From Gymnopus androsaceus JB14 (Eukaryota; Basidiomycota; Agaricomycetes; Agaricales; Omphalotaceae): a stretch of 64,000 bases of DNA. The translations under genes were made by a program, and so were the position numbers. Of the stretch, positions 10,804 to 57,348 are shown one piece after another (positions within the stretch are counted from its first letter, which is position 1; the number at the start of each line of letters is the position of its first letter). Under the pieces are notes generated by a model. That model was not told where the DNA came from and searched no databases. It was given only the letters and a program-made list of their open reading frames with translations. The stretch covers positions 1 to 64,000 of the forward strand of contig ML769458.1 of assembly GCA_009733575.1 (NCBI GenBank), in the 5' to 3' direction.

Positions 10804-13035
10804 ATGGCTAGTAACGGCCCGATTCCGCCGCCTATACCAGAGGTTTCCGCAGACTTGAAGTTTGACGGAGGCGTCTGCGTAAGCTGGACGCCTGTTAAAT
10901 GAAGGATTATAAATTCCCTAAAGACTCAAGGTCTTGTTGGCTATACCGATGGCACTATCCCTAAACCTCCTCTTCCTATCTCCGCTCCTCCTATCACCGT
11001 AACTGCCCCTGATGGCTCTACATCGACCACCACACCTCTGGCTGCTACTGCTGCTGCTACGGCAGTCTTCTCGACGGATCCTTCTCAAGAGGAATGGGTC
11101 TTTCGAAATGACTGTGCCAAAGGCATCATTGAATCTCACGTGGACAATCTACCATTGCTCATCACTGACTCGGACTCGAAGAATGCCAAAGAGCTGTTCG
11201 ATACGCTCGAATCAGTCTACGGAGGAAAGGATGGAATGCAGAAAGTACTCACCATGCGAAAACTTCGCTCCTGCATTTTCACTTCCTCCAACTCCATTGA
11301 CGCGTTCTTCAAGCGTCTCCAAGATCTACGCAAAGAGTCAATCAAGGCTGGTAATGAGATTGATGACGCTACCTTTAGAGAAATCGTTCTGGCTGCATTC
11401 CCTAGTGCCGCGTTCGACACAATCATCCAGAATATCATGATGTCTCCATCCTACCCCACATCAGCTTCTGTGATCCAGCAGATATTGTTCCAATTCTCGA
11501 GAATCGAGAATAGGGATAATGATAACTCCGTCGTGTCTGGTGATCGTATCTCCCAGGCGCATGCCGCCGTTCTTGCCAAGATTGAAGATTTGGAAAGGCA
11601 GGTAGCGGCCAAGCAGTCCAGGGAACAGGAAATGTGCGACAATTGTGGTAGGAAGGGGCACTCGAAGCATAAGTGCTGGAGGAAAGGAGGGGGAAGTGAG
11701 GGTCAATATCCTTCTTGGTGGAGGGGTAAACGAGATCCAGCTCTTTCCACACCGTCCTCCAACGTCGCAATAGGAGACTTCCCACAGATATACGGTATGG
11801 CTGCTCTGTCAGCACCGGTTGAAGGGGGACTCTATGCGGACTCCGGTGCTAGTGACCACTTCTTCAAGGAGAGGTCTGATTTCCTGACGTACGAGCCTTG
11901 CAGTCGAAAGGGACAATCTTCAGAAAAGGGAACGAAGCTTGACGTTATTGGAATAGGAAGGGTCAAGAAAGTCCTGCTCGAAGGGGGTAAACCGGTGACG
12001 CTTATATTCAAAAATGCTCTTCACTCACCAAATATCGCTTACGACCTCGTTTCAATATCTCGTCTTGACTCTCTCGGCTACACTATCCTCTTCGGCAACG
12101 GAAGTGCCAAGTTCTACTCACCCCGAGGAACTCACTTCTTGACTGGAGTTGGTTCTGGTGATCTCTACCGACTGAACGTACACGATCCTCAGGCACTTGC
12201 GGCCAGATCTCGATCCCTACATCGGCCAGTTGACCTTCAGACTTGGCATTGTCGATTTGCGCATGCTGGGACAGACCGGATCAAACTTCTGGAGAAAGAG
12301 AAGCTGGTGGATGGACTCACCATTACGAATTCTACCCTTGACGGAAGGTGTGTAGACTGCCTTGTCGGCAAAGCTACTCGTAGGCCTTTCGATGCAAATG
12401 TGGATATAGAGAAGGAGGTTCTGGAAAGGGTTCACGCGGATTTGACCGGACCCATGAGAACCATGGCCAGGGGAGGCTACCAGTATTTGTTCCCTATGGT
12501 CGACGGTTGTTCCGCGTATGGAAAGGACTACTACATGTCCAGAAAGGAATCGGGTTCTGCATTGACATGCATGGACGCCTACAGAGTTTGGGCAGAGAGG
12601 CAGACTGGGAAGAAACTGTGTTGCATCAGGATTGACGGTGGAGGCGAATTCGAAGGAGAATGGGATGCTTGGGCTACGCGCCATGGGATTTCGCTTGAAA
12701 GAACTCCTGCATATTCTTCAGCAGCTAATGGCATGGCGGAGAGAAAGCATGCAATTACCTTTGCCAAAGTTCGAGCCATTCTGCACGACTCAGGCCTTCC
12801 TCAAAACTTATGGGCCGTGGCAGCTGCATATGTCGTATACACCGAAAACCTGCTCCCATCCACGCGAAATGGAAACCGAATCCCTGCCGAGGTCTTCTTA
12901 GGCAAATGGCAAGACGTTTCACATCTTCGCCCGTTCGGTGCGAGGGCTTGGGCGACGATTGTCAACGGGAAACCAGGGAAGACAGATCCAAGGGCGTTGG
13001 AGGGTAAGATGGTTGGTTATATGGCGAGAGGAGTC
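10804..13035 (+). pseudogene. Copia gag-pol, 5' part: gag, zinc knuckle, protease, integrase
   Basis: The frame opens at ATG 10804, meets TGA at 10900-10902, and is then open to the insertion at 13035. Visible in order: a UBN2-type gag, a zinc knuckle CDNCGRKGHSKHKC (CX2CX4HX4C), an aspartic protease with ADSGASDHF, a GAG-pre-integrase zinc site (H...H...CVDC), and the integrase core with RVHADLTGP, RIDGGGEFEG and a Glu in NGMAERKHA (D,D,E). The codon at 10900 fits CGA mutated to TGA. The frame is cut at GYMARGV by the nested element and continues at 20074. Confidence 0.9.
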
Positions 13036-13483
13036 CAGCCTTAGTTGTTATCCTGACTGCTTGAACTTGGGATACAACCACAAGTTTCAAACACATCAGC
13101 AGGGATACAACCATAGCGACCATTGCCCACAGGGATATTGCGAGGCACCCTTAACAAAGGGCAGCTACGGATAAATCCCTAGCACCAGAGTAGGTAAGCC
13201 CCGTGACTTTCCCGCCCCTTCCCAAATGGGACATATTGCGCCCAGTCTCAAATCGGAAACAGCACTCCCAGAGACGGCAGCTGGCCGGAACGGTCGAAAC
13301 AAGTGCAAAATTTAAGCCAGTTGCACTAATCGAACAGTAGACCTGTCCAATCGAGAGCAACCAGCGTTAAATCTAAGATGAATCTGTAGACCTTACCACT
13401 TTGCCACCGGGTTGATAATGTTTATGGATTTAACATCAATTTAATACGAAACCTTCACGCTCGCTGAAGCGTGTACAACAATA

Positions 13484-15560
13484 CTATACGGAACTAGGCA
13501 AAACCAAAAGATTCATACTCCTCCACCTCTTCCTCTCCCTCCTCTTCAATTCTATCCGGAATCTCCACGCTTTCATTTCAACTGCGAAGTGGTGATACAG
13601 TCCTCGATGTTGACTGCATCCCATCCGTGTCGGCTGTAAACACACCTCTTGTAAATTCTCCACGAGAATGTCCAGCTTTAGGACAATCCGATTATCCAAT
13701 TCCAGTCCGTTATCATTCGATGAGAACAGCCGCAGCTGCCCCAAGAATTTACAAAAGACCTTCCTAACATCGTCACTTCGTTCCGAGTCGTACAATGCCA
13801 GGAGGATATCCAACGCAACATTGGCGTGCGGGTTACGGTGACTATGTGCGGAAAACGTTCAATCTCATTAGACGACTCAAAGATCGAAAGCACTCACAAC
13901 CTCCTCCGACCTCCCAAGAAACTCTCTATCACACATAACCAACATATCAAACACAATCTGAAGAACCTTCAGCTTCAATTCCTCAGGTGCCATCTGCACC
14001 TGGTTGAGGAAAAGCTGGAACGAGTTTGTCGTCATGTTCCACGCAGTGAGGCAGCACAGGCCCAGAGCTACCAAGCCCTTTTCTCGAAGTGCTAGTTCTT
14101 TGCGCTTGACTGCTGGGACAATGAGGTCGGTCAAGACTCCTTCGAGCATAGAGTTATCTTCGAATGTCTACATGGATATATCAGTCGGGTCATCCGCAAG
14201 AGTGAATAGAAAGAGTCGTACCCCATTAACGCGTTCGAGCATACCAATACAAAGCACCAAGCAACGCATGTCGTTCAAATCAGCCTCATGTTGCTCTTCA
14301 GCAGTCATATCCTGATATTCCTTCGTCCGTCGTATCGATCTGTCCTTCTTGCTGCTAGCAAAGGTGACGTCGGAGCGACTGGCGTCAAAGTTCTACGCAA
14401 AAACAAAACGCATTATCAGTCAGCGGGGAACAAATACCCAGCTACACAGCTTGAATACTTACATCATCCTCAAGAGCTTGCTCGGTATCATCATCCCGTA
14501 GTTCAATGATAATCTCCACAACTATCCGAATCAACTCCCTTTTGGAAGGAAGGATCTTACACAAGACGTCTAAACAGCGCTCAATGAGGCCTGGTGGAAA
14601 ATGTGGATGCGCCAGCATATCCGCTGCACATGAAATTAGCTATAAATCCTTGCTAGCGACAGAGAGAAATGCAGACTCACTAAAAACCGAAAAAACCTTC
14701 CTTCTCCCAATCTCATCCATATAATCCAACTTTACTGCGATTCTCAACAGCTCTCCAAGTATCAGCTCCTCTTCCCGTGCCTCTCTTTCCTTGTAATCCG
14801 GTTCGCCAGCATCCAAAAAGTCAATCTCTTGCATGAGAGAGAGTAACGCGTTGTAGACTTATTGGATGTGGAAAGCAAAGGCCGTTAGGACTGGTATGGA
14901 AGCGGCCTCGAGACAAATTTCGCCTTTGGATTCAAGGCGAAGACTCGAGCGAGAACAGCGGATTCAGGCGTGAGCTCTTCCCAAAAGTCATCTGTAGGCA
15001 AAGACCTATGTTAGCGTGAAACCCAAGGGAGGAAAACAGAAACACTGACCACCAAACACAAATGCGTCCAAAAGCAGAAAACACTGAGAGCATCGCGTCA
15101 ACAGCAATGACTTCACCAGGACCAATGACATCAAAAAAGGCCAAAAAGTTTGTAAAGCCCTTCATCACACCCCCATCTTCTCCTTCCCATGACTTTGGTG
15201 CTGACGAAGGATCTGGTTCTTTGCTCATAGCGATATCCAACCATTTCATGATCATCTTGGCTGAGGCAGCCCGAACAACAGCCTCGCAATCTCCAAGTCC
15301 CGCTTTTGTGATCTCTCTCTGAGCAATGGTTAGATGCCTAGGATGACCCAGCTTCGGTTCGAGCACGGCGCTGTAAGCCAGCTTGAGCGTGAGGGTATCG
15401 GTGTCTCGTGTACGTGTTATGATAACTGGAAGTGTTTCGGGGATTACGGGCGCTGCTCGGCGTACTTCACTACAGTTTGAGTAAGGATTGAGCCATTGCA
15501 TACTCGATCTCTCCAATATTGGAGGCGGGTTCGTCTTTTCAGTAGACAAAAAGGAGATGT
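13484..15560 (-). pseudogene. Captured fragment of condensin subunit CAP-G (YCG1/CND3), C-terminal half
   Basis: Minus-strand segments in order match the HEAT-repeat and C-terminal Cnd3 region of condensin non-SMC subunit CAP-G, which works with SMC2-SMC4 in chromosome compaction. At about 15490-15220 VRRAA, TRTRDTDTLTLKLAYSAVLE and LTIAQRE appear; at 14834-14690 EEELILGELLRIAVKLDY; at 14630-14470 PPGLIERCLDVL and ELIRIVVEIIIELRDDD; at 14149-13880 LREKGLVALGLCCLTAW and LKVLQIVFDML; at 13813-13640 DILLALYDSERSDDVRKVF. GT/AG junctions between segments look like retained introns. The N-terminal half is missing and no continuous frame joins the pieces. Whether 15560-16214 belongs to the same gene is unclear. 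Confidence 0.8.
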
Positions 15561-18040
15561 GCCAATAGCAAATACACCCATTCTGCAGCTTGTCTTTGCA
15601 GCGATCCCTCGTTTCTTTCCGCGGGATGATATCTTCGGGATAAGGCTCGTCGACGTCGATAGTCGTCGGTGCTGGGATTTAAGTGAGGATGCGCGTTTGG
15701 ATGGAGGAGATGTGCCGATGATGATGAAAAATTTGGTTTCCCATATCCATTCGGAAACGGAAACCCTCCCATTGTCGCAGTCGTAGGCGTCGCACTCAGC
15801 GGAATCGCAGCAGAAGCAGCAAAAATCCGTTTTCGTTTATGCGGCGCGATCGAGCATAACATTCCTCAACAACGAGCCAAGAGCCAGAGTTGATTGACAG
15901 GATGAACGTCAAAGCAAGCGTAACGAAACGCCTTGTTATCTGCAAATTTTGTTTAGTAAATCCAAAGCGACGAATAAAGAACATAAGTTACCAGGTGTAA
16001 CTGGATCAGCTTGCTCGGTAGCTTTAGGAGGGTTAACCGGACACGGACACAAGAATCCCGAGACGAAGTCGAACGAGGAGGCGATGAAAGTGTCCAAGAA
16101 TGGGAAGTGAGGGAGATAATGTCGTGAAACGGCGGAAGATGGTAATGCGGAGAGAGATGGTTGCGCCGGGATGAGAAAGACGAGTGTGGTTGTGGCATAG
16201 GAAGAAAAGGGCAATTATTGAATCAACGGAATCCGAATACCGGAATTACGGCTGAGCTGAGTCACATGGTGCGAATGTCGTTCTAGATATGAAGAACGCT
16301 ACGAGTGTGAAGGACGCCATGCTCATGGTCCTCTCGTTCCTAGTCAGAGTCTCGTCCTTTCAAACTCTAAGACTGGATGTAAAAGACAAGATAAGTACAC
16401 GACGTAAATGTCAAAGCAGTCAAAGCGGTCAAAGCGGTCTCAATTCAAACTCTATCTACATAAACCATCTCATTCAGTTACTCCGATCGTGATTGATCAG
16501 AGGTTGCGATTTACTCAAGCGCACCTCTCCTCCTAGTAACAACCAACTTAATCTGCTCTTTTCTTCAATGAGACATTTCGTCTGTAGCAGGTATGCAACA
16601 ATGTCAATTCGTCACTCATACTAATCAATTCAGTTTATGTTGCAGTTGAGCACTGTGCCACATATCACTCCAGTCTTCCTCAGATACTCTCGATAGCACA
16701 CTTACAGTTTCAAAAGGTTTCAATCTCGCTCTCAGTTTGTGCATCCTTAGATGAATATTTAATTCACCGTTGGACTCTATGCATTCCGGAACGCATAATG
16801 AACTTCTAGACGAATTTGTTCTGCTCTTATTCAGCACCATTAACTTTACTTAGATATCCTCCATCCGAAATGACAGGCTGACTTGTCCGACAAATTCTTG
16901 AGTAAATGGACCTAAGTTTTCCCCGCGGGAGAGCAGAATTGTGTCCACCCAGAAGCAACGTTGGTAGAAGAAAAGGTAAGCATTTGACTAACGCCTACCA
17001 CTGCATCGTTTGAGGTTGATTTTCCAACAAATAAATTATCGAAATGATACCACATATTGCTCATATGGCTTTGCAAATATGCTCCAAAAAGACCTCCAAG
17101 ACTCACTAATATTTGGCTCTAGTTCATCGCTTAGAACAACGGACTCGATTCTGTAGTACAGTACTTACTCAGAATGAAATATAATTTTATCAACGTCATT
17201 GTGTTCAGTACAAAAAATATCTTGATAGCACAGACTATAAACATGTATTGAAGCGAACCCAGGACATCCGGATGATATCTGTTATCATCTCATTGCAAGA
17301 GACCGTCGTTTCAAACGACGAGCTCGAAGAAAACGCCCGTTAAGCGCCTACGGACCGCGTTTCCGAGCGTGATTCTTTTGCGATCTCACGGTTGGACTTT
17401 GCTCTTGACGTTCACTCAACATGCGGAATTACCACCCAAGACTTTGCTCAATCTCTTCAGGCCCATGGTACGTCTTTTTTCTGGTGTTGATTTGGAAATC
17501 TCTGACTCCTTCCTTTCCTATAGCTTCCCTTTCTCTTAAAATCGATCCTCTTCTCAGATAGCAGCTTGAACTGGCGATGCTACTTCTTCAACAATATTTC
17601 TGGCAATAACGGAACCTGATATCCGTGCATATGCTTCCTTTACACGCTAGCATCAATCCATGAATGCCGCGAAAAGTTGAGGACACATTGGAGGACTATA
17701 TCAAGGACATGAGGTAAGTAAATTTTCACTGCGTGCACGAGTGGCGGAGTCTGACTCGTCTTTTCAGACACTTTCTAATCTAACGAGGAGATCTTCCTTC
17801 ACGAAATCATCTCCACTGTCTCCTATGCTTTCGACAAAATCAAATACGTGTCTTTGACCGACCCATCCGTGCTCGACACTGGGGAGGACTTGATCATTCG
17901 TCTCGTCCCCAACATCTCCAAGATACCGTTCTTATCTGTCTCAGCTCTGACGACCACAACTGATACCATCTCCCGCCTCTTTCATGTTTTCTATTGGACC
18001 TCCGCATGCTGCGACTCTCTCGGCGCCCAGACTATTGCTC
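15561..18040. other. Interior of the Pack-type element, unassigned
   Basis: This stretch holds several short open frames on both strands. The plus strand at 17345-17460 (FTQHAELPPKTLLNLF) and at 17790-18000 ([16 protein letters not shown]) reads like eroded coding exons, possibly a fourth captured gene, but I do not recognise the family. The rest shows nothing I can support. Confidence 0.35.
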
Positions 18041-18045
18041 GTTTA

Positions 18046-18720
18046 TATTCTCCTTTCGACGACTCGATTGAGGGGTTGAGTGGAAATATCTCTTTTAGCC
18101 ACATTTCCTTGAAGGTATGTCTTTGTTTTCACATTGATCGATCTACGACTAATTCTTGTTCGATAATTTCCTGTTTGCAAGAGTGACACTTTCCTGCGAG
18201 GAATGCGAACTGTGGAATTCAAATCGACCTCGTCGAATTTTGTATAGTTGCACAAGACACTGTTATTCACACAGGGTCGTGTTCTAATTCTAGTTCGATT
18301 GACCCTGCTCTTCGTCGGTGTCGATTTGGTTGATTTGACCGTGAAGTCGACATTGGTATTCCTGACTCAACCGCCGTCTCGAAATTTCACGCATCCGTAC
18401 CAAGAACGTGAAGTTGGCCAATGATGTTGACCTCGAACAGGTATGGCCAGCTGTTCATTTTCCAGATTGACGCGATACTCACGGTTACGTTGGTTCCAAT
18501 GTAGCGTCTCCTTGTTCAAGGTTCCGACTACTACTTGGGACAATATCGGTGGTGTCGAGAAGGTCAAATAGGAGCCACAGGAGACTCTACAGTACCCTGT
18601 CGACCACCCGGATCCTCAAGCACACTATGCCGCCATCAATTGGTGTGTTGTGCTAGACGCTGTTGGCAGAGGCTATTGCCCATGAGTGTAATGCCAACTT
18701 TATCATTATCGAAGGCAAGT
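18046..18720 (+). pseudogene. Captured, internally deleted fragment of CDC48/p97 AAA ATPase
   Basis: Pieces read in order along CDC48, the hexameric segregase that extracts ubiquitylated proteins. N-domain: [13 protein letters not shown] (about 18052), RGMRTVEFK (18196), then EFCIVAQDTVIHT (18235). It then jumps to the end of the D1 ring: SIDPALRR, FDREVDIGIPD (18293-18370), RIRTKNVKLANDVDLEQ (18388). After an intron-like gap, VPTTTWDNIGGVEKVK and ETLQYPVDHPD (18520-18615), then LLAEAIAHECNANFII (18660) from D2. Most of D1, including its Walker motifs, is missing. In-frame stops (a TGA fitting CGA at GR|FDRE, and a TAG after EKVK) and frameshifts make it non-coding. Confidence 0.85.
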
Positions 18721-18844
18721 CCTGTTCGTTATGCTTTACAATATTTACTTACTCATATGCTCCACAAGGCCCTTATGGTTGGTCGTCAAACATAGTCTGT
18801 TGCCTTCCGGTGCTTTTATGGTACGGTTTTCTGACTTTCCTTTA

Positions 18845-19420
18845 GGTCATGCACGACACCACCCGTCCACTCGTCCCATCGCACCAAAATCGAAATACTC
18901 AAGTCTCAATTCACAATCGAAGATCTCCTATGGCTAGAAGAAATCACCGTCATCTCATTCGCTGATGGGTTACGGATGTTTTTTGATGACGGTTGGGCAA
19001 ATGATGAGGGGAATCGACCGAAAAAGGGTGAGGATTTATCCACTTGGATGGAGATTAGGTTGGGCCAGTTGATAAAGGTAAGATGCGCTCACCCGACCTC
19101 CATATCTTACTAACCTCTTGCAGGAAAAATATAAGACAGCCTATTACATCCTGGACCAATTCCCTCGTTCCACTAAACTCTTCTACACGATGGCCACCCT
19201 CTGCTTCTACTGCAGTTTCACTCGCAGCCAAACATCCCGATGGACATGCCGGCGAAATCACCAACAGCTTCGACATCATTGTGCGGGGCAAGAGATCGCG
19301 GCTGGCGGTCAGCGAAACCACGACTATGACCAACTTCTCAATACAGGTCCTCAACTGGTATGAGTATGCCCTTGGGTTCGACACCTACATTGGAGGAGTC
19401 TTGCTGGTGAGGGTAGCAAG
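18845..19420 (+). pseudogene. Captured fragment of cytosolic aspartyl-tRNA synthetase
   Basis: Two exon-like blocks joined by a GTAAGA...TGCAG intron (about 19078-19123). The first reads EDLLWLEEITVISFADGLRM...GEDLSTWMEIRLGQLIK; the second KYKTAYYILDQFP and FYTM, then, after a frame change, EITNSFDIIVRG and, in another frame, GQEIAAGGQRNHDYDQLL. This is the order around motif 2 and the active-site region of the archaeal/eukaryal-type AspRS (KYxTDYYILDKFP, NSxDxFxRGxEI, GxQRIHD). It ends before the motif 3 GLER. At least two frame changes make it a relic. Confidence 0.8.
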
Positions 19421-19689
19421 TACTGATAGTGATGTGCTTAGCGCGAATGAATTGACTGTTGGTGAGTAGCAATCAAATTGTAGGGCGAAGTGGTCAGAAG
19501 TGGAAAATGGAGCTCTGGAAACTCAACGGCGTTGGGCGAGGTCATTTACGGGTTCGGCAAGCCGATAAATATTGTAATTTTTTATTCATGAAATAAATAT
19601 GCTCAGTTTCCTTGATCATGAATGCTGGTGTGCTGGCCCGGAGTGGAGGTCACATAATCGTACTAATTTTCACTGTAACATATTCCGCC

Positions 19690-19790
19690 TGAACAAGTGG
19701 TTAGTGTGTGCCAAGGGCGTTTATTGGAATGATTAAGCGCTGGAGTAATTATCAAGTGTTGGGTTCGATTCCTCGAGACGACATTTTACT
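19690..19790 (+). other. tRNA-like sequence inside the Pack-type element
   Basis: TGAACAAGTGGTTAG resembles an A-box and GGGTTCGATTCC, about 70 bp later, is a near-consensus B-box. The T stem has mismatches and the acceptor arm is not convincing. It may be a tRNA-derived SINE or a decayed tRNA of the long-variable-arm type. Confidence 0.3.
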
Positions 19791-20073
19791 CCGGCTCCAA
19801 GTCGGTCCAGTGTATGCTTCCGGTGTCTCCGTTGCATCCATCTTTGTCATCGCGTACCTCCGCCTCAATGACTCATCATCCCGACGCCTTGGGCGCTGGC
19901 ATTACTGGTGCAATGGATAAATCCCTTGGCCATAATGGTTCCTATGGATTTATCCCATAGCCCCTTTCCAGTGGCATTGGCTATTGTGTGGTTGTATCCC
20001 TGCTGAAGCATTTGCAAAGTAGGGATTTAGCCCAGGCTCAAGCCTTCAGGATAACAGATAGAGGTGAGGAGTC

Positions 20074-22128
20074 TACTTGATATACTTGCCGACCGGTTCC
20101 ATTATTCAGAGCAGGGATGTCGTATTCGAGGAGGGTCGCCCTAATTGTACGCTGTCGGTTGAAGGGGAGGATGACGGTCAAGGAGAAGAACTTGTTGATT
20201 CAACCGACATCAACGTAAATCCCGGTATCTCCGTCACCGATCAAATCTCCCTTCCTGATGCCGATCAAATCATTCCCGGTTCCTTGACATCAGACCAGGC
20301 TCTCGATCAAATGACTCTGGATGAACCTCCTCCTCTAATGCCTCCCCCTCTCATTGAAGCACGCCGTTCTCCTCGACACCACTCTGGTCCACCGGTCCTC
20401 ATTCCACCTCATCAGCCTCGTTCCCGCAAACCTAAAGCCGCATTGGCTACCCTGGCAGATGACCTAAACGAAGCGGGTGCTGAATGTAATACCACACTTG
20501 TCGCGATTGGCATACCTCCTGTCCCGAAAACTTACAGACAGGCCATGGAAGATCCCGAACGATGAACAGCGGCAATCGAGAAGGAGAAAACCAGAATGGC
20601 GGAATTCGGTGTTTTTGGGCCGCTTCAAGATCCTCCTCCAGGCGCTACAATCCTTTTTCCATTATATGTCTTTGCCCATAAACTCAACGGAGAAGGGGAA
20701 ATCATTGAGGAGAAATGCAGGATAGTGGTGAACGGCGGTACTCAGACGGAGGGGCGTGACTACTTCGAGACTTTCGCTGCAGTCATGCATTTCGAATCAT
20801 TCCGGATACTCCTAGCTCTATGGGTCAAACTCAATTACATTATTTGGCAAATCGATTTTGCGTCCGCCTACCTGAACGCTGATCTCGAGGAGGAACTCTA
20901 CACTTGGCCACCTGAGGGATGGGAAGGATATAGGTCAGGAAAGGTGATGAGGATTAAGAAGTCGATTTACAGGATGATGCAGGCTGGACGTAACTGGTGG
21001 GAGACTTTGGACGCTTTGTACCAGGAAATGGGTTATCGAAGATCGCAAGCGGACCAATGCATCAGGAGTCGAGTAACGGAGACAGGGGAGATGATAACGG
21101 GGACATATACAGATGATACCTTAGGGGGTTCGTCAAACGTTCAGGAGATGGAAAAGGCAAAGAAGGAGATCGGGGAGAAATACCGTATTAAAGAGACGGA
21201 CAGCATTCAGTTTGCTCTTGGAATTCGTCTCGTTCATGACAAGGCTGCGGGTCGTGTCTTGCTCTCCATGGAATCCTACTTCGAACGTATGCTTGCACGG
21301 TATGACCTTGAAGGTCTCAAACCGAAATCGACTCCTCTCCCTGCAGGTCTCTCGCTCTCGATGAATCAATCTCCTCAGACTGAGGAGGAACGCCATTTCA
21401 TGCGCGACAAACCTTATCGCGAAATTGTGGGAGCGCTCCTCTTTGCCGCCGCCGCATGCAGACCCGACATTGCTCAAGCTACAAACACTCTTAGTCGATT
21501 TACTGGCAACCCTGGCCGAGCACACTGGAACGCACTCATCCATCTCCTCCGATATATCACTGGCACCAAATCCTATTCAATTGTTTATTCACGCGACGCT
21601 CCCGGAGGTATTGAACCAGTTACATATGTCGATGCCGACTATGCTGCGTGCGTAGATACTTGACAATCTACAACTGGTATCCTAACTATGATGGCAGGGG
21701 GAGCGACGTTTTGGCAGTCCAAACGACAGGACGTCGTAGCTCTATCGACAACTGAGGCAGAGTATATGGCGTTGGCAAAGGGGGCTCAGCAGGCACGATG
21801 GGTTTATAATTTCCTTGCCGAAATCGGGCACGGAGTCTCTCTCCCATCTTGTCTCAGGGCCGACAACAAGAGTGCCATCGCTATATCCGAAAATCCTAAA
21901 TTCCACTCTAGGGTCAAGCACATCGACATTCGATTCCATTATCTCCGTGATGCCGTGAAGTCAGGGGAGCTCAAAGTGGAGTATATTCCCTCGGAGGACA
22001 ACCCAGCTGATATCCTCACTAAACCCCTTGGAACTACCCTTCATCATCGCCAAGTCAGTCTTCTCCAGCTCGAGGTTGAATCCCCAGACGAAGCTAGGGG
22101 AGTGTTGGACGAGGAGGTCAAAGCGTAA
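20074..22128 (+). pseudogene. Copia pol, 3' part: reverse transcriptase and RNase H
   Basis: The frame resumes exactly after the second GAGGAGTC copy with YLIYLPTGSI. The reverse transcriptase spans about 20596-21560, with IWQIDFASAYLNA and the catalytic GTYTDDTLG (TDD in place of the common VDD, which I have seen in fungal Copia). RNase H follows, with TTEAEYMALAKGAQQARW, ADNKSAIAI and KHIDIRFHYLRD. TGA codons at 20563-20565 and 21661-21663 interrupt it; both fit CGA to TGA. The final stop lies inside the 3' LTR. Confidence 0.9.
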
Positions 22129-30803: not shown

Positions 30804-32303
30804 TCATATATAAAAGGGTAAGGCGAAGTCGTTGGTATATAATGGATGGACTCCCGGAGGAGGTGAAGCATCTGGATTCAAAGCTCTAATCCTTTCAGTG
30901 CGACGAAAAAGTCTGACTTGATGGCGGAGGGAGCCTACGGCTTGGATTTGGCATTCATCAATACCCTTCACAACAAGCCATCCCTTCAGAAAATTTCTCC
31001 CCCGCCCGACGCGAAGGCCATTGATGAAGAAGCCCTCGATAGTAGGTATATGTTGTGCAATGCGGGATGTATACTGGATTATAGCAGATTCGACTTCCAC
31101 GTGGCCCGGCGGCTCAGGCAATGGGACTTGATTGCTAAAGGCCAGAAGCCTGAATGGACGCAAGAAGCCCACCACCCGTAGGGAAGAGAAAACGCGGAGC
31201 GAGTTGATAAGTTCATCCTAAGGGGCCAAGTTAATCACACCTTTCAAGAGAACAAAAAAATAGTAAATGACATACGGCAACAGTAGAGCGTGGTAGGTGC
31301 ATAGTAAAGATTTCAGTTCAAGGGAAGAAAGTATGTGCGAGATTCAAGATCCTTCCCCCCGCCCACTTCGAAATCCTTGAATACAACCCAGTGATATACC
31401 ATTCCGAGAATGGACCTTGGCTACAACTTCAGAACCTGGGCTCACCGGGTAATAGCAAAACCTTTTATTTCTCCCTCGTCACCAACTTCCTCGACAAATG
31501 GCTTGATGAAAAGGAAGTATAGCATCACGGTGCATGGCTCCACGCACATAATATCGTGAAAAGCTGATTTTCCTCAGTAGTGGATGTCCATGGGCAAAGT
31601 CAGAAAGCCAAGATACGGTGATGGGAGATGCGTCTAGGTTAATATGCAGCTCGCGAAGGCCAGTAAATTTCCGGCCTCCGAATGACCCATGCAGCAGCGC
31701 AGTTGCTTTTATATCATATAGATGATTTACGCGCACGCCAAACATAAGATATTTTTCAATCTCGCTGTAATCGTTGTCGTTGCAAACCTTTGTTGGGAAA
31801 AAGACGATCTTCGTGAATTCTGAAGGTCGTAACTCAACCTTGAGTAAAGCTGTGTCAAAATGCGCCAATGATGGAACAATAATGGTCGAGACGGGGGAGT
31901 GAATTTATAACAGTGAGCAGGGAATATTGAGTGTAACCCTCGAGCTTCCCATATTGATTTGGGAGAGATTTCGCAAACGGGGAAGGAGAAGACAGAGTGT
32001 ACCCAATGTCCTCTGGTTCAGAAGACGAACGAAGATGAAGTGATCTATATTCACTAAGTAGCGCCCGCTGACGAGGAGGAAAGCTCCTTACCTGATAGCT
32101 AACGCAAGAGCTTCGTTGGCAGTACACTGATCTATGAGTCTCTCCGAATCTTTGCCTACTTCTATCTTGACGCATGCAAACAGGAATGGCAAACATATTC
32201 GTCGGACAGAAATAAGGTCTTTGTTCGCATATCTCCAGCGATTGAGCGTGGTCATCTTGGGTTTAATGCATACTGTGTCGACATCAGATATGATGCATTT
32301 CAC
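30804..32303 (-). pseudogene. F-box-like/LRR-type protein gene A, truncated copy
   Basis: Minus-strand blocks parallel gene B (33433-34970). N-terminal part at 32303-32090 reads RRICLPFLFACVKI and LIDQCTANEALALAIR (gene B: RRLCLPFLFAYVKV, LTDQCAAGSDAFSASIR). Middle part at 31868-31480 has HGHPLLRKISFSRYY (B: RGHPLLKKISFTGSY). C-terminal part at 31175-30804 has SAIIQYTSRIAQHIPTIEGFFI (B: AAIIQYTSSIAQRIPTIEAFFI) and ends FYI. The segment between about 31470 and 31180, present in B, is absent or unreadable, and the N-terminal F-box helix is missing, so this copy is probably defective. F-box-like proteins in basidiomycetes are presumed ubiquitin-ligase adaptors; the substrate is unknown. Confidence 0.55.
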
Positions 32304-32426: not shown

Positions 32427-33085
32427 ATGGAATCTGCCTTCACGGTCACAGCCCATCCTTCAACGGATATATGGCGCAAGCCTCCCAAAACTAATAGGTC
32501 TGCATTATCTCGCGTTTGATCAAATTTTGATATCAGCACGAATCACCGATCCTTATTTTATTTTACAGCTTCAATGCACCCACTCATGCCCTTCTACCTA
32601 AGCCGATCGCGCTGAAATCCTTCCAAGGCGTGCAACTTACATTTAGCGGTCCTTGGACGACACGTTACGATCAGGGCGGGCTCTTGCTACACTTGACTCG
32701 CTCAGGTTCTACTGACAGGTGGCTCAAGACTGGTATCGAATTCTACCAGGGCAAGCCGTACCTTAGCACAGTATCTACCCTCACCTATTCAGACTGGAGC
32801 ATCGCTCCGCCTGTGTCTACAAACCCCAAGACAACTATTGAAGTTCGTCGGGAAGCTGACGAGCTGGGCAGCAGTTTGTGGGTGTATGAGCTTGTTCTCG
32901 GAGATGACGGAGAAGTGTCGAGCAGGCAGCCGTTGAGGGAAGTGACATGGTTCTTTGCAGAGGAAGAGGGATGGGAAATAGCTATTAGTGCTATGGCAGC
33001 GAGACCTGCAAAAGAGGAGGATGTTGAAGGCCAAAAGAATCTGACGGTCAATTTCGATGGTGTGGTTGTTAATGTCAATACTTAG
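32427..33085 (+). CDS. DUF1349 family protein (concanavalin-like fold)
   Basis: Two exons, join(32427..32497, 32569..33085), 195 residues, with phases agreeing at the 71-bp intron (GTCTGC...TTTACAG). The product starts MESAFTVTAHPSTDIWRKPP and holds SFQGVQLTFSGPWTTRYDQG, then DRWLKTGIEFYQGKPYLSTV, TIEVRREADELGSSLWVYEL, then REVTWFFAEEEGWEIAISAM and MAARPA. This is the complete DUF1349 pattern, a beta-sandwich related to concanavalin-like folds and to yeast YBL-type 'regulation of enolase' proteins; biochemical role unknown, probably cytosolic. Length is normal for the family. It lies between two F-box-like genes, 124 bp from the apparent start of gene A in divergent orientation. The intact frame suggests a working gene. 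Confidence 0.85.
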
Positions 33086-46544: not shown

Positions 46545-48291
46545 CTACAAGCCCAAGTCAACTCTGGCGGGAGCTCGAACAACCTGGAGCTCTTCCCTGA
46601 TTATGCGAGTCACTTCTTCCCATGCAGAAGTTCTAAAATTGCCCGAAACATGAGTGAGTGAAGGAAAGACTCGATCCAGGCGTACAGCGACACCATTGAG
46701 ATCTACTAAATCTCCAGGCAACGTGCACTTGAAGGTATGCAGTGGATGTGCAAAAAATGTCAGATCTGGAAGGTTATCAGGAAGTGGTGAATGAACCTGG
46801 ACAGGAACAGCCAAATATTCCAGTTTTCGGCAGTTTTGTGCAAAGTGAGACAGGGAGTTGATAGTAGCTTCTGTGTGTGGGTCTATTTTAAGTATATCCC
46901 AGGCCGCAGCTGGCGTAATGACCAGTCTCTCCAGGTTAGGCCAGGCCAACGTGATGCTCTCTATCCGTTCATCCGACAAACACACAGGAAACGTACACTC
47001 AAAAACTTGCATCTCGTGCAATGGGAGGAAAGACGCGAACGTCGACCACAAGTCATTGTCACTAGCAAATAGGGCTGTCTTCACGGGAGATAACTCTACG
47101 CAACACCTCGTAAGCAGGCTGAAAGTTGAGATCTTCACTGCGAGGCGGTTGAAAGAAAGAAGGAACGCAGGCATTTCGAGGAAATCGGGGTCCATCCAGG
47201 TAGTCACCTCCAATGATTGAAGCACCGTGGATGGGATTTTCGACAGAAATGCATGGGCCTCATCGATTGAAGCACCAATTGAAAAATTGTTTCAAAGATG
47301 CAAATCCACTTTTCCAAGTTCCATCATAATTTAGGTGAGTCGCAGAGGGAACTCTGAGAGAGAGATTCGACAGCTTTGGCAAATTCGAGATGGTGGCGAT
47401 GAGATCCTTCTCATAATGATTGAGAGTGCCATAGATCTGCAAAACTCGAAGTCCTTCCAAGGTGCGCAGGGTTGAGGAGAAGGATGAGAAGGGTCGACTC
47501 TCCCCATACGACAGAATAATCTCCTCCAATGTGGGCACCTTCCGAGCTACGCTGGACAAGGTCGGTCCCAAGTCCGGCGCATCCTCGCCATAAGAGCTCG
47601 GAAATTCCACGGAAAGCAGGGAGTCTGATAGGAAGAAGGGAAGGCTTCCAGAGGATATAAGCGAATGTGATGCACAAAGTTTACGAAGGTTAGGGAAGAT
47701 ACATTGTGGAGCTTCCCCGATTCTTGCGTATATTGAGGCGTCGATGTGGCCTGGCCGATACAAGGACAAGACTCGAACGCGAGATGTGTAGTAGAGCATT
47801 CTGTTCCAATACATGCGGCTTTTCACTATAGCCTGCAGTTCAGTCAGTTGAACGGAGTGCAGAGTACTAGTATTGGCAAGAACCTTTTGATTGTCTCCAC
47901 TGAGTTTACTAAGAAGATTTCTCATACTATCCAATACCTGCATGGACGTCAGCTACTGGCACGTCGTCGAGAGAAATTAACAACATTGGCTCTTGTTCCC
48001 AAGTCCTTCGTCATCTGCAGAAAGTAACAAAGAGCGTCCTATGCTATAAATCTCTCTCCAGAGAACGTCAAGAGCTGGTTCCAAGCAAATCTTGTTGGTG
48101 AGACCGAACGACACCAAGGTCATCCGCATTGTTCTAATATCAAAGGGGTGAACTCCAGCTGGATCAAGTTTCTCGCAGATAAGGTAGATGATATCGGCGT
48201 TCAACTGCATCTTGGATGTTGAATCAGGTTGAAGGTTGAGAGGCTGAAAGAGCGAATAGAGATCAAATTTGACAGAAGTTGATGGGCGCAC
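46545..48291 (-). pseudogene. F-box/LRR-like gene D, frameshifted
   Basis: The C-terminal half (47225-46545) is open: LQSLEVTTWMDPDFLEMPAFL...LPLHEMQVFECTFPVCLSDERIESITLAWPNLERLVI...EEVTRIIREELQVV. It loses phase from the part to its right near 47286, where AAAAATTGTTTC replaces the AAAAGTGTTTC of copy C. The middle (47943-47260) is open, including the segment MQVLDSMRNLL...LTELQAIVK that is closed by a stop in C and E. The N-terminal block (about 48210-48000, MQLNADIIYLICEKLDPAG) is separated by another frame change near 47985. So it is damaged at two places that differ from the damage in C. Confidence 0.65.
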
Positions 48292-48544
48292 AATGCCCGG
48301 GTTCAGCGCTCAGCGCTTAGCGTTCAAAGAGTTCAACAAGACGTTCAGCCTTGGACGATTCATTGAAGAAATGCTGCACGGCGTAGTACCCATGAGCGTC
48401 TACATCGCCTGGCTGCCGTCGCTTGGGATCCCGGGAACTTGTCAACTTTGCTTCACTAATTCGCTCAGTGATTATGCAGAACGGCGTCATCTAAGAACAG
48501 AGCTGCCTAATTTTACAAGCCGGGACTTTCTCGGACTTTCTCTG

Positions 48545-48760
48545 TGAACCGTGAGGCTTTTTTTTTTTTTTTTTGGCGTTACACATTTTCGCTGCCTATC
48601 GCGTCGTGAATTGGATATAATCTAAACTCTCTTTATATGTTCTAAGGATTCCCTGGTACGCATTCAATACACAGTCTTACTGACAAAACCCAAGTTCTAC
48701 TCGCAGCAATTTGAAGCATTGCGGAGATCATAACTTCAAGTCCGGGTCAACTCTCATGGC
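48545..48760 (+). repeat. Segment shared with 60010-60200
   Basis: Words in the same order at both sites: ATCGYGAAYTGGATAT, CTAATCCC/CTAAACTC, GAGGATCCCTAGTATGCATTC against AGGATTCCCTGGTACGCATTC, GCAATYTGAAGC, and CATAACTTCAAGTCCGGGTCAAC. It lies directly before the REX1 fragment. A T17-type homopolymer is at 48557-48574. Confidence 0.7.
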
Positions 48761-48769
48761 TCATACTAT

Positions 48770-49175
48770 TTTGCAGATGGTCACCAGACCCGTTCTCTAT
48801 GACAAAATCCTCTTCCTCCTCTGTAATTCAAATAACCCTGCTCACCCCAATTCTCCTCGGACGCTCGCTCGAATCCGACCCCAAAGCCCTAAAAATCCAT
48901 ACCCTCTCTGCGTGATTACCGCCTTGATCTACTCACCCTCGTGGACGTCCATTCAAACCCGGCCTAGCTTAGCTGACAAAACAACGGTGCGAGCGGGAGT
49001 GCCAAGTTCGTGGAGAGGGTGAACACGCAGAAGACGCGTGCGCCGCGATGGTGCTCGTGCGGGAAAAAGTCAAGGGTAGACGAGACTAGCGCTATGTTCA
49101 ATGGTTGTTCCAATCTCCCTGGTTCCAGCATCTGTATGATTCATCGAAACCTAGCCAATTGTAATACCAACAGCA
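48770..49175 (+). pseudogene. Duplicated fragment of the REX1 gene and its 3' flank
   Basis: It begins at the REX1 intron/exon edge (CATACTATTTTGCAG|ATGGTCACC; the parent has TATACTATTTTCCAG|ATGGTCAGG) and follows the nuclease domain: LTPILLGRSLESD and RGRPFKPGLA, then EDACAAMVLVREKVKGRRD, with stops and frame changes. From about 49090 it matches the REX1 3' flank (37640-37730). The 'GHS' loop is changed to 'GRS' and the frame is broken, so it makes no enzyme. Confidence 0.8.
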
Positions 49176-50773
49176 CTATAAAGCAAAGTTTCCCGAAACA
49201 AGAGTGAGTGAAGGAAAAACTCGAGCCAGGCGTTCAGCGACACCACCGAGATCTATTATATCTCCAGGCAACGTGCACTGGAAGGTATGCAGTGGATGTG
49301 CAAGAGATGTCGGATCTGGAAGTATATCAGGAAGCGGTGAATGAACCTGGACAGGGACAGCCAAATACTCTAGTTTCCGGCAGTTTTGGATAAAGTAAGA
49401 GAGGGAGTTGAGAGTAGCTATGTCACGGTGTGGGTCTATGTCCCGGACCATAACGTTCGCAGTTGGCGTGATGACCAGTCTCTCCAGGTTAGGCCACGAC
49501 AATGTGATGCTCTCAATGCGTTTATCCGACAAACACATAGGAAATGCATACTCAAAAACTTGCATCTCGTGCAATGCGAGGAAAGATGCGAACGCCGACC
49601 ACAAGTTATCATGAATAGCAAATAGGGCTGTCTTCACGGGAGATAACACTATGCAACACCTCGTAAGCAGGTGAAAAAGTTGAGATCTTCACTGCAAGGC
49701 GGTTGAAAGAAAGAAGGAATGTGGGCAAGTCGAGGAAATCGCGGTTCATCCTAGGTAGTAACCTCCAATGATTGAAGCACCGTGGATGGGACTTTCGACA
49801 GAAATGCATGGGTTTCATCGATTGAAGCACCAATTGAAAAGTGTTTCAAAGATGCAAATCCACTGTTCGGAATTCCATTATAATTTAGACGGGTCGTAGA
49901 GGGAACTTTGAGAGAGAGATCTGTTAGCTTTCGCAAATTCGAGATGGTGGCAATGAAATCCTGATCATAATGAGTAGGAATGCCATGGATTCGCAAAACT
50001 CGAAGTTCCTCCAAGGTACGCAGCGTTGAAGAGAAGGACGAGAAGGGTCTATGCTCTCCATATAACAGTGTAATCTCCTCCAAGGTGGGGGCCATCTGGG
50101 CTACGCTGGACAAGGTCGGTCCCAAGTCCGGCGCATCCTTGCCATAAGAGCTGAATTCCACGGAAAGCAGGGAGTCTGATAGGAAGAAGGGAAGGCTTCC
50201 AGAGGATATAAGCAGTTGTGATGCACAAAGTTTACGAAGATTAGGGAAGATACATTGAGGAGCTTCCCCAGAGCTGGGGTATATTGAGCCGCCGACGCAG
50301 TCTAGCCGATACAACGAAATGACTCGAACACGAGATGTGTAGTAGAGCATTCTGTTCCAACGTGACGGATCTATCTGGCATTTCATTATAACCTGCAGTT
50401 CAGTCAGTTAGATGGAGCGCAGAGTATTATCGGCAAGAACCTTTTGATTGCCTCCCCTGGGTATACGAAGAAAACTTCTCATACTATCCAATACCTGCAT
50501 GGACGGACATTTTCGAGAAAAATCATGAGTAATAACTCTGGATCTGGTTCCCAGGTCTTTCCTCGTCTGCAGAAAGTAAAGAAGAACATCCACGCTATAA
50601 ATCTTTTTCCAGAGAACGTCAAGAGCTGGTTCCAGGAAAGTCTTGTTGGTTAGACCGAGCGACAACAAGGTTTTCCGCGCAGTTCTAGCATCATAGAATG
50701 TGCTGTATCTTTCAAATTGAGCTGGGTCAAGTTCTTCGCAAATGAGATAAATGATATCAACGTTCAACTGCAT
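49176..50773 (-). pseudogene. F-box/LRR-like gene E, frameshifted and 3'-truncated
   Basis: The N-terminal block MQLNVDIIYLICEELDPAQFERY...CPSMQ (50773-50500) can splice in phase across GTATTG...CTGCAG to VIMKCQIDPSRWNRMLYYTSRVRVISL. The LRR part is open to LQSLEVTT at 49751, where ACCTAGGATGAACC (D: ACCTGGATGGACC) brings a stop and shift; another shift follows near 49650. The last block ends early at VSGNFAL (49176), exactly where the duplicated REX1 flank begins, so the C-terminal EEVTRIIREELQVV is lost. Confidence 0.65.
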
Positions 50774-53545: not shown

Positions 53546-56500
53546 TCATCTGCTGACAGCTCGTCGGCTGCTATCCATGAAAGCTCTTCGTCTGTTCCTT
53601 CGTAACCTCCGCCACCGGATGTAGTACCGAAGCAGGCATTGTTTGTATCGTCGGTCATATTTCGAGTCCAGTATCTCGGCAACTTCGAATTCGGTTTCAC
53701 CATCAACCTCTACCGGCGGCGGCGGTGGTTGAACTCGGTTTGGAATGGAGTTGGGAATACTTGGTTCAAGTTGCGAGATGTGGAAGACCGGATGGATTCG
53801 GGATAGATATTGAGGAAGCTGGAGTTTATAGGATAGGGAGCCGGGTCGGCCAATGACCTTGAATGGGCCTAGATATTTCTCGGAAAACTTCTTCGTTGGC
53901 CGGGTAGATTTGATGTGCTTCGCGAGAACGAAGACGTCGGAACCGATTCGGAAACTCGGGGTGTGGAATGCGAGACTTATCGGCTTGTTCTTTATAACAA
54001 TCCTGTGCGTTTTTGATTTTGGTACGGAGGTAGGAATGGAGCTCGTCAAGATTTACTGCGAAGTCATGGGCTCGGTCGGAACGGATATCAATTTCGGGTC
54101 GAACAGTGATGTTCGGATGATAACCCTTATTGGCGAAGAATGGAGAAATACCGGTTGAGGCGTTCGGCGCATTATTGTAGGCAAATTCGGCAAGTGGGAG
54201 GATCTCGTCCCAGTTGTCCTGTTGATAGGAAGTGTAGATTCGAATATATTGCTCTAGCGTCTGATTGACTCGTTCGGTTTGACCGTCGCCTTTGGGGTGA
54301 TAACCGGAAGTAAAATGTAACTCCATAGAGAGAGCTTGGCCGAGAGCGCGGAAAAAGGCCGAGACGAATTCGGAACCTCGATCGGAGGTTACGTGGCTCG
54401 GAACTCCGTGTTTAGAGAAGACATGTAGGACAAAAAGAACAGCAAGCTGCTCGGAGGTGATCGATGTATGACAAGGGATGAAGATACCTTGTTTTGAGGA
54501 TCGTCCACAATGACCAGTATCGAATTATAACCGTTGGAGTTCGGTAACTCTTCGACGAAGTCCATGGAAATAGAATCCCATGGCCGAAGCGGAACCGGAA
54601 GTGGTTTGAGCAGACCATATGGTCGGTGCCGGCGAGACTTATTACGACCGCAGGTTGTGCAGGAACTTACGTAGTCGCGGACAAAGTCTCGGACTTTCGG
54701 CCAGGTGTACTCTCGTCGAATAGACTCAAGTGTTCGGTTCTGACCGAAATGACCGGAGAGTGGGTGGTCATGGAAATATTGGAGGACTTGAAGTCGAAGT
54801 TCTCCGCCATTAGGTACGTAAATTCGGCTATCCAGTCGGAGTAGACCGTCAGAGCCGAGAGACCAGCGAGGTTTGGACGGATCAGCGGCAGCTTCTAAGC
54901 CGGCGGCTGCTTCCGCATCCAAAGGAAGAGAGAGTTGGATGGCATTATGAAGTGCCTCAATATCCATGACAATTGATGCTCGGAGTATCAGACCTTCGAG
55001 AAAGGTTGCTCGAAGTGATGTGGTTAGTTGTTTGTTTGTGAAGATTGGTCGGAAATTCTGTGGATTGACTTGCACGTAGCCGATATCCCCCTCTTTCGGG
55101 TAGACGTCCCATCGTCTAGTCATAGCGTCGGGTTTTTCACCGAGCTTACCGGGACGGAACCGGATCACCATGTTGAAGGTGTGGAGGTATTCGGACCATC
55201 GGACCTGTTGTCGGGTCAATATTTTTGTAGTTGAGAAATACTCAAGATTCTTGTGGTTGGTCACCACATCGATCGGTTCACCGGAGCCTTCGAGGTAATG
55301 CCGCCAGCTCCGGAATGCCTCGAAAATGGCGAGGAGCTCTTTGTCGTGAGTGTTGTAGTTGAGCTCTGCCGCTTGGAGCGTTCAGGATAAGAACGCTACC
55401 GGGTGAATTTGACCGTCATTCGAGGAGTATAGAAAGGATTGCCGCGACGGCGTAGTCGGACGCGTCGGTTTCTATGATAAGGGGTCGGTTTGGTTCCCAA
55501 TGTGCAAGGATCGGTGCGTGTGTGAAGGCAAACTTCAAGTTGTCAAACGCTGCTTGACAATCGGCCGACCATAACCAGTCGATACCTTTTCGGGTGAGAC
55601 GGTTTAGTGGAAGGACGATTTCAGAATAATTATAAATAAAACAGCGATAGAAATTAGCGAAACCGAGGAAGGATTGGATGTCCCTGACTTTCCGAGGAGT
55701 TGGCCAGTCAGTTATTGCTTGTACCTTGTCGGCGGCCATCGTCAACCCGGCCGGCGACATGATGTAACCGAGATATTCCACTGTATTGACCGACCATTCG
55801 CACTTCTTTGCATTAGCGAAGAGTTTGTTTTTCCGGAGCCGCCGGAGGACTTCCCGAACGTGTTCCTCATGTTGCTCGGGGTTATCCGAGTAGATCAGGA
55901 TATCGTCGAGATAGACAATGACGTTGACATCAATCATGTCCGCTAGGACTTCATTGATGAATCGTTGCCATGCGGCCGGAGCGTTTGTGAGACCGAAGGG
56001 CATGACGTTCCATTTGTAGGAACCCCATCGGGTGCAGAATGTTGTCTTCCACTCGTCACCTTTGTTGATTCGGACGAGATGGTAAGCATGTTTAAGGTCG
56101 ATTTTGGTGTATATCCGGGCTTTTCGTGGAGCATCCAAAAGGTCGGATATGAGTGGCAGCGGATATCTGTCTTTTTTTGTAATTCTGTTAAGACCTCGGA
56201 AATCGACACAAAGCCGAAGGGAGCTGTCTTTCTTCGGTGCGAAGAGAACCGGTGCTCCGTGAGGTGAATTCGATACAGAAATGAATCCGGTTTTGAGATG
56301 CTCATCGAGAAAATCTCGGAGAGCCTGCTGCTCACGAGGGGAGAGTGGAATGATTCGACCGAGAGGCGGGGAACTGCCTTCTTCTAGTTCAATCTTGAGA
56401 TCATAAGGTCGGTGCTCTGAAAGCACATCGGCTTGTACTTCATCGAAGACATCGGCGAAGTCCTGATATTGTGCCGGGATGTCGGTACGCGGTGGTGATG

Positions 56501-57200
56501 CAGTTGCCGCAGATCGGCCGGATACTTCAAGTGATACGGCGTGTATCAGAAACGGTTCGGAACCCGTTTCTTTGAGAATGCGGGAGAATGCAGCAGCACA
56601 TACAAAAGCGATGTCGACGTCCGGGTACTCAGTTTTGGCCGCTCGTTGATGGACCGAAGGATAGGTGTAGATGGGTTCAAAAGGAAAGCGCTCGGATAGA
56701 GGCCGAGGCTTTGAGATGCGAGCACGGTTACCGCAAGGCGTACCGTAAACGGGAGAAACCGTTGGGGTCGGAGAATCCGGAGGGATTTCGGACCGAGAGG
56801 ATTCTGAGCGGTCGACGCGACCGGTCGGAAAAGACGTCTGAGGATAGAGTCAAGCTGCTCGGTGTGTCGGAATGTTATAGTTTTTGATGCCCAGTCAATC
56901 AACGGATTGTAGCGGGTCAAGAAACTGAATCCTAAAACAGCTTTGCATGATGAGTCTAAAGGAGTAACATAAAATGTTAAGGGGAAAAGCTCGCCGGATG
57001 GAAACCGGACATCGAGAGATGCCGTTTCCGAGATTGCACTAGGTGCAAGTGAACCATCAAACAACCGAAGGTTGATCGGAGTGATTTTCGTAGTCGGTAT
57101 ATCATTCAAAGAAACGTAAGATCTATCTAAGAAATTGTCCGTAGAACCGGAATCGAGTAGAGTGGAAAAGCTAAGTACAACCGCAGTTTCAGCCGATTCG
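53546..57200 (-). pseudogene. Gypsy pol: protease, reverse transcriptase, RNase H, integrase, chromodomain
   Basis: Protease with TLLDSGSTDNFLD near 57150; reverse transcriptase 56426-55430 with [50 protein letters not shown] and catalytic VYLDDILIYS; RNase H opening with IIETDASDYAVAAIL. A frame change near 55420 follows. Integrase 55267-54390 has the zinc-finger text YVSSCTTCGRNKSRRHRPYG and WDSISMDFVEELP; another frame change near 54510, then GYHPKGDGQTERVNQTLEQY with the catalytic Glu. The C-terminus carries a chromodomain-like EVAEILDSKYDRRYKQCLLRYYIRW, also frameshifted. The order defines a chromovirus-type Ty3/Gypsy. Confidence 0.9.
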
Positions 57201-57348
57201 TTTATGGCTGGAAACTCGGTAATGAGATTGAAACGGAAGGATCGATCGAGATCGGAAAGAGCGGACGCGTTGAGAGTTACTTCCCCAGATTGAGTACGAA
57301 CGTAGTCAACGCGACTCCTGCTTCGTACCGGGGTACAGGAGCCGCGGA

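Follow-up and report, generated by a model that had tools for sequence, protein, structure and literature searches.

The first 64,000 nucleotides of contig ML769458.1 of Gymnopus androsaceus JB14 (assembly GCA_009733575.1), called here the window, contain an element of 7,030 bp at positions 13036-20065. It is inserted into a Ty1/copia retrotransposon with an 8-bp duplication. The target-site duplication (TSD), GAGGAGTC, is exact on both sides, and the element has imperfect terminal inverted repeats (TIRs) of 68 nt. When the element and one TSD copy were removed, the copia frame read without a stop across the junction, which falls at about codon 629 of 795. Pfam search of the flanks found Retrotran_gag_2, rve and SH3_retrovirus 5' of the element and RVT_2 (1.8e-44) at 20596-21660.

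Between the two ends the layout is left cargo, shared core and right cargo (Table 1). The cargo is assigned to six host genes: condensin CAP-G, a PHD/SET-domain gene, an S9 peptidase, HSP90, CDC48 and aspartyl-tRNA synthetase (AspRS). The transposase gene of the element itself is reduced to its last ~25 codons. With host-gene fragments between TIRs, introns kept and no transposase gene of its own, the element can be classed from its sequence as Pack-type. It is very probably a non-autonomous Pack-type member of the KDZ (Kyakuja-Dileera-Zisupton) family of DNA transposons in G. androsaceus.

Table 1. Features of the element and its insertion site in the window.
Feature	Position	Strand	Evidence and remarks
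Ty1/copia polyprotein, 5' part (gag, integrase), interrupted host	11140-13027	+	Pfam; resumes at 20066
Left TSD GAGGAGTC	13028-13035	.	exact repeat
Whole Pack-type element, very probably KDZ, 7030 bp	13036-20065	+	genome-wide repeated ends, TSD, in-frame empty site
Family left end, TIR arm 13046-13113	13036-13457	+	at least 28 other places; TIR 78%
KDZ transposase C-terminus relic with stop, SVEIPDRIEEEGEEEVEEYESFGFA	13484-13567	-	collinear with C251 and C410, equal distance from left end, 79% DNA identity
S9 peptidase piece, 3' side	13579-13633	-	84% to C84:138973-139027; split from 15900-16013 by CAP-G/PHD block
Condensin CAP-G piece (13633-13839, 13838-15502)	13633-15502	-	parent on C33; introns kept, internal deletion relative to parent
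PHD/SET-domain gene piece	15521-15846	-	93.3-93.7% to C286 and C363
S9 peptidase piece, 5' side	15900-16013	-	91% to C84:137677-137785
Core common to family members, between cargo arms	16141-17540	+	matches in other copies
Possible 56-nt leader intron GTACGT...TAG directly after ATG	17468-17523	+	candidate, from sequence alone
HSP90 5' piece	17717-17914	+	PDB match 2e-11; 86.9% to C71:40328-40530
CDC48 pieces with internal deletions (17921-17953, 18037-18313, 18294-18518, 18519-18773)	17921-18773	+	86.6-91.3% to C177:11697-13252
HSP90 3' piece	18776-18835	+	87.9% to C71:42277-42338
AspRS piece	18863-19335	+	84.1% to C12:208148-208622; PDB 5.2e-17
Family right end, TIR arm 19989-20056	19635-20065	+	at least 32 other places
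Right TSD GAGGAGTC	20066-20073	.	exact repeat

Host-gene pieces and order of capture

Every piece in the left arm lies on the minus strand and every piece in the right arm on the plus strand. Fuller parent genes, judged from their open reading frames (ORFs), are present elsewhere in the genome, on the contigs here called C33 (CAP-G), C177 (CDC48), C12 (AspRS), C71 (HSP90), C84 (S9 peptidase) and C286 and C363 (PHD/SET); identities to C33, C177, C12, C71, C286 and C363 exclude gaps. The two CAP-G pieces aligned with C33:163914-164121 and C33:164704-166422 at 91.8% (207 columns) and 93.0% (1660 columns), introns included, and one such intron, minus-strand GTAAGT...TAG, occupies 14393-14462. CAP-G was also recognised by Pfam as Cnd3 (1.3e-27). 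Its substitution rates at the three codon positions were 0.079, 0.044 and 0.098. Because indels are present and all three codon positions are substituted, the pieces appear to be decaying, non-coding sequence.

Among the other parents, the gene on C286 is named PHD-type/SET domain-containing protein and matched Pfam PHD (1.3e-8), the gene on C84 matched Peptidase_S9 (1.2e-39), and the gene on C177 is CDC48 by PDB match (4e-101), with 33 bp (17921-17953) identical in the element. Pfam found no family in the three plus frames of the window element, with stops read as X, and nothing but Cnd3 in the minus frames; the short exons were therefore identified through DNA match to the parents and PDB search. 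From parent to element, C-to-T changes at CpG sites showed only a mild excess: they affected 58 of 466 sites, and the reverse direction gave 28 of 393 (Fisher p 0.012). At non-CpG sites the corresponding counts were 82 of 1298 and 73 of 1321 (p 0.41).

The pieces are nested. The S9 sequence is interrupted at 13633|15900 by the CAP-G/PHD block, and the copies on C375 (same left end, 82%) and C188 have the S9 piece and lack the block, so CAP-G and PHD arrived after S9 in this lineage. On the other arm, the 60-bp HSP90 3' piece follows directly after the CDC48 pieces, which means that CDC48 sits within HSP90 sequence. Such nesting indicates sequential captures. AspRS and HSP90 are the pieces least like their parents and look older than CAP-G and PHD. 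Other copies of the family also contain the HSP90, AspRS and S9 pieces. CAP-G is also not unique to the window: C398:13933-14180 (L071) matched its parent (C33:164080-164324) at 91% over 249 columns, on the same strand as the CAP-G piece of the window, which places CAP-G in at least two copies. This match runs into CAP-G sequence that is gone from the window piece, and it is either a second capture or a shared ancestral capture.

An earlier note on this DNA had described a multi-gene Pack-type element of hAT type at 13036-20065, with one pair of inverted ends, retained splice motifs and pieces of CAP-G, CDC48 and AspRS. Its boundaries are exact, as shown by the TSD and the in-frame empty site, and the Pack-type, multi-gene nature of this fungal element is borne out by the TIRs, the repeated ends and six parents. 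The three named pieces are real (Cnd3 for CAP-G, DNA matches to C177 and the PDB match of that parent for CDC48, and a PDB match for AspRS), and the CAP-G intron confirms the splice motifs. The count of three genes was too low, since the PHD/SET and S9 pieces had been missed. A possible fourth fragment at 17.3-18.0 kb turned out to be HSP90 in part (17717-17914). Two of the checks which the note proposed gave positive results: introns run through the CAP-G alignment, with identities to the parents of 84-93.7%, and other copies of the ends exist.

Related copies and superfamily

A search of the 83-Mb genome with the left end (first 165 bp) listed 30 matches; one of them is the left end of the window element itself and another its right end, which leaves at least 28 other places, with identities of 71-98% and with some partial matches. 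The right end was found in at least 32 other places (best 40 of 57 candidates scored). At least 17 copies, the window included, have both ends in order and orientation, on C76, C188, C264, C92 (two), C712, C290, C282, C549, C723, C152, C375, C145, C449, C61, C410 and C251. The core lies between the ends in 11 of the 17 (C76, C188, C264, C92:148605, C712, C290, C282, C549, C723, C152 and C375). Seven were read from end to end, namely the window, C188, C92:148605, C282, C290, C251 and C410, one of them with N stretches.

The family copies share ends and core and carry differing cargo, so that the arms are modular. C188 carries a P450 piece (8e-15), and C92 carries a NAD/FAD-binding piece (6e-5) together with a left-arm protein (149027-149581) which had no Pfam, NCBIfam or PDB match and has relatives in the genome. 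In C282 there are an alpha-amylase piece (2e-8) and a GH47 piece (1.5e-27), the latter matching a right-arm stretch also present in C92 and C290. A P5A-ATPase piece is found in C712 and also in C549. The right arms of C92, C282 and C290 are alike at 91-97%, and their left arms differ.

Some further arrangements of family sequence were seen. C301 has three right ends on one contig (28237-28586, 66520-66869 and 69403-69752), two on the same strand 2.9 kb apart, which are possible short derivatives. C375 has two left ends in the same orientation (31733-31840 and 32468-33062) 1.2 kb apart, perhaps a copy inside a copy. C325:40017-53842 has scattered AspRS, core, CDC48-side and HSP90 matches, which point to at least one more Pack copy in rearranged form.

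The superfamily can be read from copies with the same ends. C410 (15.9 kb), whose ends match those of the window, encodes the KDZ transposase domain (PF18758, 1.3e-31) and the CxC cysteine cluster (CxC2, PF18803, at 3.8e-20 and 5.9e-8). C129 and C320 have KDZ matches 2.2-2.7 kb inward of left ends, and these run in the reverse direction to the element, as does the transposase gene of C410. In the window, the relic SVEIPDRIEEEGEEEVEEYESFGFA corresponds to DMEMPDRVEEEGEEEAHEAEYFGFA of the KDZ copy, with the stop codon kept. C290 is collinear with C410 across the first 0.8 kb, of which ~0.4 kb is the transposase end. The KDZ copies are divergent, with the transposase leftward and a second ORF rightward; this second ORF (C251:28835-30292) had no Pfam or NCBIfam match. 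C410 also contains a direct duplication spaced by 394 bp (L045:7540-8083, 84%). Both KDZ and hAT transposase domains are abundant in this genome, with at least 161 matches (best 150 of 335 candidates scored) and at least 145 matches, respectively.

The hAT superfamily proposed in the earlier note would agree with the 8-bp TSD, with the left terminus CAGCC and with the commonness of hAT domains in the genome, but an 8-bp TSD fits hAT and KDZ alike and does not discriminate between them. The best 150 of 237 candidates for the hAT dimerisation domain PF05699 were scored; of the 145 matches listed, none falls in a copy with these ends. Because KDZ domains occur in same-ended copies, KDZ with CxC2 in C410 included, because the transposase relic remains in the window and because the listed hAT matches are all outside such copies, we assign the family to KDZ and reject hAT, which we consider highly improbable. 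We judge it just as improbable that the pieces came together without capture by a transposon, the locus being a repeat-rich region in which pseudogenes and unrelated insertions lie nested as in a graveyard. Repeats are indeed frequent in the flanks (copia around the element, gypsy at 54-59 kb), and the pieces carry mutations. The exact TSD, the in-frame empty site and the single pair of repeated ends speak against such a graveyard, and siblings with the same ends and core hold different gene pieces at equivalent positions. With the same ends bounding other cargo, this explanation was also rejected, and so was a chance origin of the TIRs.

Several results weigh against the reading of the window element as a non-autonomous Pack-type KDZ element. 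Only three of the 29 left ends, the window's included, have a KDZ match at the expected place among the matches listed (C410, C129 and C320), and in C129 and C320 the end and the KDZ match were linked by their positions only. Eight copies with two ends were read on either side; comparison of their 8-bp flanks gave 8/8 matching positions in the window, C264 and C282, 7/8 in C92 and C251 and 6/8 in C290, but 1/8 in C188 and C410. This poor agreement means that several copies, KDZ-bearing C410 among them, are rearranged or old. In addition, the core had no convincing match in C410 or C251 by nhmmer (best E 0.016), so an origin of the core in them was not supported, and the KDZ copies read are not its direct source.

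Core, orientation and mobility

The main block of the core (16980-17560) had at least 41 other matches at 39 places (best 40 of 79 candidates scored), and core sequence is also present in C188, C92, C282, C290, C264, C712, C16, C387 and C398. In C16 (L024, near 768-1016) a short tandem repeat with a unit like GAGGACGCTACGAGTGTGAAG is expanded within the core. All 10 core copies that were aligned keep the GT and AG of the candidate leader intron at the right edge of the core, as compared by eye; the ATG is not present in all.

Twelve of 13 parent genes point outward from the core (binomial p 0.0034). On the left arm, minus strand, these are CAP-G, PHD/SET, S9, P450, NAD/FAD-binding, amylase and a piece of unassigned family in C92; on the right arm, plus strand, HSP90, CDC48, AspRS, GH47 and P5A-ATPase. 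The exception is in C92, where one piece of the left arm, possibly UspA-like and with a relative at C38, is on the plus strand. Each parent was counted once, from the window, C188, C92, C282, C290, C712 and, by match positions, C549. C264, C16, C387, C398 and C346 were partly read and checked by eye only, and ORFs without identity are outside the count. A CstF77/crooked-neck-like piece in C16 (PDB 3e-5, outward) was excluded as too weak. The differing orientations reported in the earlier note are correct in that both strands are used, but they are not random. That note also suggested that antisense transcripts could affect the parent genes; the outward, sense-from-core layout would, if anything, make antisense RNA from the core less likely.

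The core may act as a promoter. The regular orientation could equally be without function, the core lacking a promoter, and simply a by-product of capture, for example if repair copied transcribed genes one way only; to us the chances of this are about even. There are only 13 distinct parents, with one exception in C92, as would suit a capture bias; the strength of the outward excess, the conserved GT...AG motif in the core copies and the likewise divergent KDZ copies speak against such a bias as the whole explanation.

For the probable KDZ element we propose the following scheme. A KDZ transposase made elsewhere would mobilise the element in trans by cut-and-paste. The cargo would be taken up as genomic DNA, since introns are present, probably through template switching in repair of the element or of an excision gap, and arms may be reshuffled between copies by recombination or conversion. 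As the weakest step, pieces antisense to transcription from the core may be selected against. A wider proposal is that the KDZ family is a modular gene-shuffling platform, in which the core would transcribe outward both ways through swappable arms that gain sense host exons, chimeric intron-containing transcripts of essential genes would arise repeatedly, and inward captures would be purged as parent-silencing. We regard this proposal as rather unlikely.

Elsewhere in the window, Ty3/gypsy pieces are on the minus strand at 54389-58712 (RVT_1 7e-42, Integrase_H2C2 1e-20, gag). Minus-strand ORFs at 47260-50386 gave weak LRR/F-box-like matches that do not reach the Pfam cut-offs (E 2e-4 to 6e-4); they may form a local group of LRR genes.

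Comparison with known systems

Among cut-and-paste elements, the capture of several genes is known above all from plants, in which Pack-MULEs and other Pack-TYPE elements are non-autonomous and contain fragments of several host genes between TIRs. The window element resembles them in these points, but it belongs to another kingdom and very probably to another transposase superfamily, and it has a shared core with outward cargo. Helitrons are rolling-circle elements without TSD or TIRs; the window element has both, so a Helitron was rejected.

KDZ elements have 8-bp TSDs in Zisupton and a Dileera element (PMC12730594) and in KDZ1 (PMC12810828), TSDs of 4-8 bp in KDZ2/3 of Cryptococcus (PMC12810828), and 7-bp TSDs without TIRs in two Kyakuja families of Laccaria (PMC12730594). 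The family described here is like Cryptococcus KDZ1-3 (PMC12810828) and Zisupton, Dileera and Kyakuja (PMC12730594) in its KDZ transposase with a CxC cluster and its TIRs, and its 8-bp TSD is shared with Zisupton, a Dileera element and KDZ1. It differs from KDZ1-3 in having a CxC2 instead of a CxC1 cluster. The KDZ elements described there encode a transposase or TET/JBP, unlike the window copy, which has no transposase gene and six host-gene pieces.

Fungal hAT elements that transduplicate histone H3 are described from Pyrenophora (PMC3538342) and Pseudocercospora (PMC6710886, which also mentions Pack-MULEs). They are likewise fungal TIR transposons with a host gene, with an 8-bp TSD in Pseudocercospora (PMC6710886). 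Those cases concern one intronless, transcript-derived gene in hAT elements, unlike the many genes with introns in the present KDZ copies. Helitrons of Pleurotus, also mushroom DNA transposons carrying genes, are reported not to capture host genes (PMC4289320). No report of host-gene pieces in KDZ elements was found in the literature searched, of which the coverage is incomplete.

In the published captures by fungal TIR transposons that we found, hAT elements carry a single gene, histone H3; here many genes are found in a probable KDZ family, across related copies. In this mushroom family introns are kept, captures are layered one within another and the outward orientation is regular. This makes it possible to test how TIR elements gain host DNA, and whether it is the mechanism of capture or selection against antisense RNA that decides which way the pieces point.

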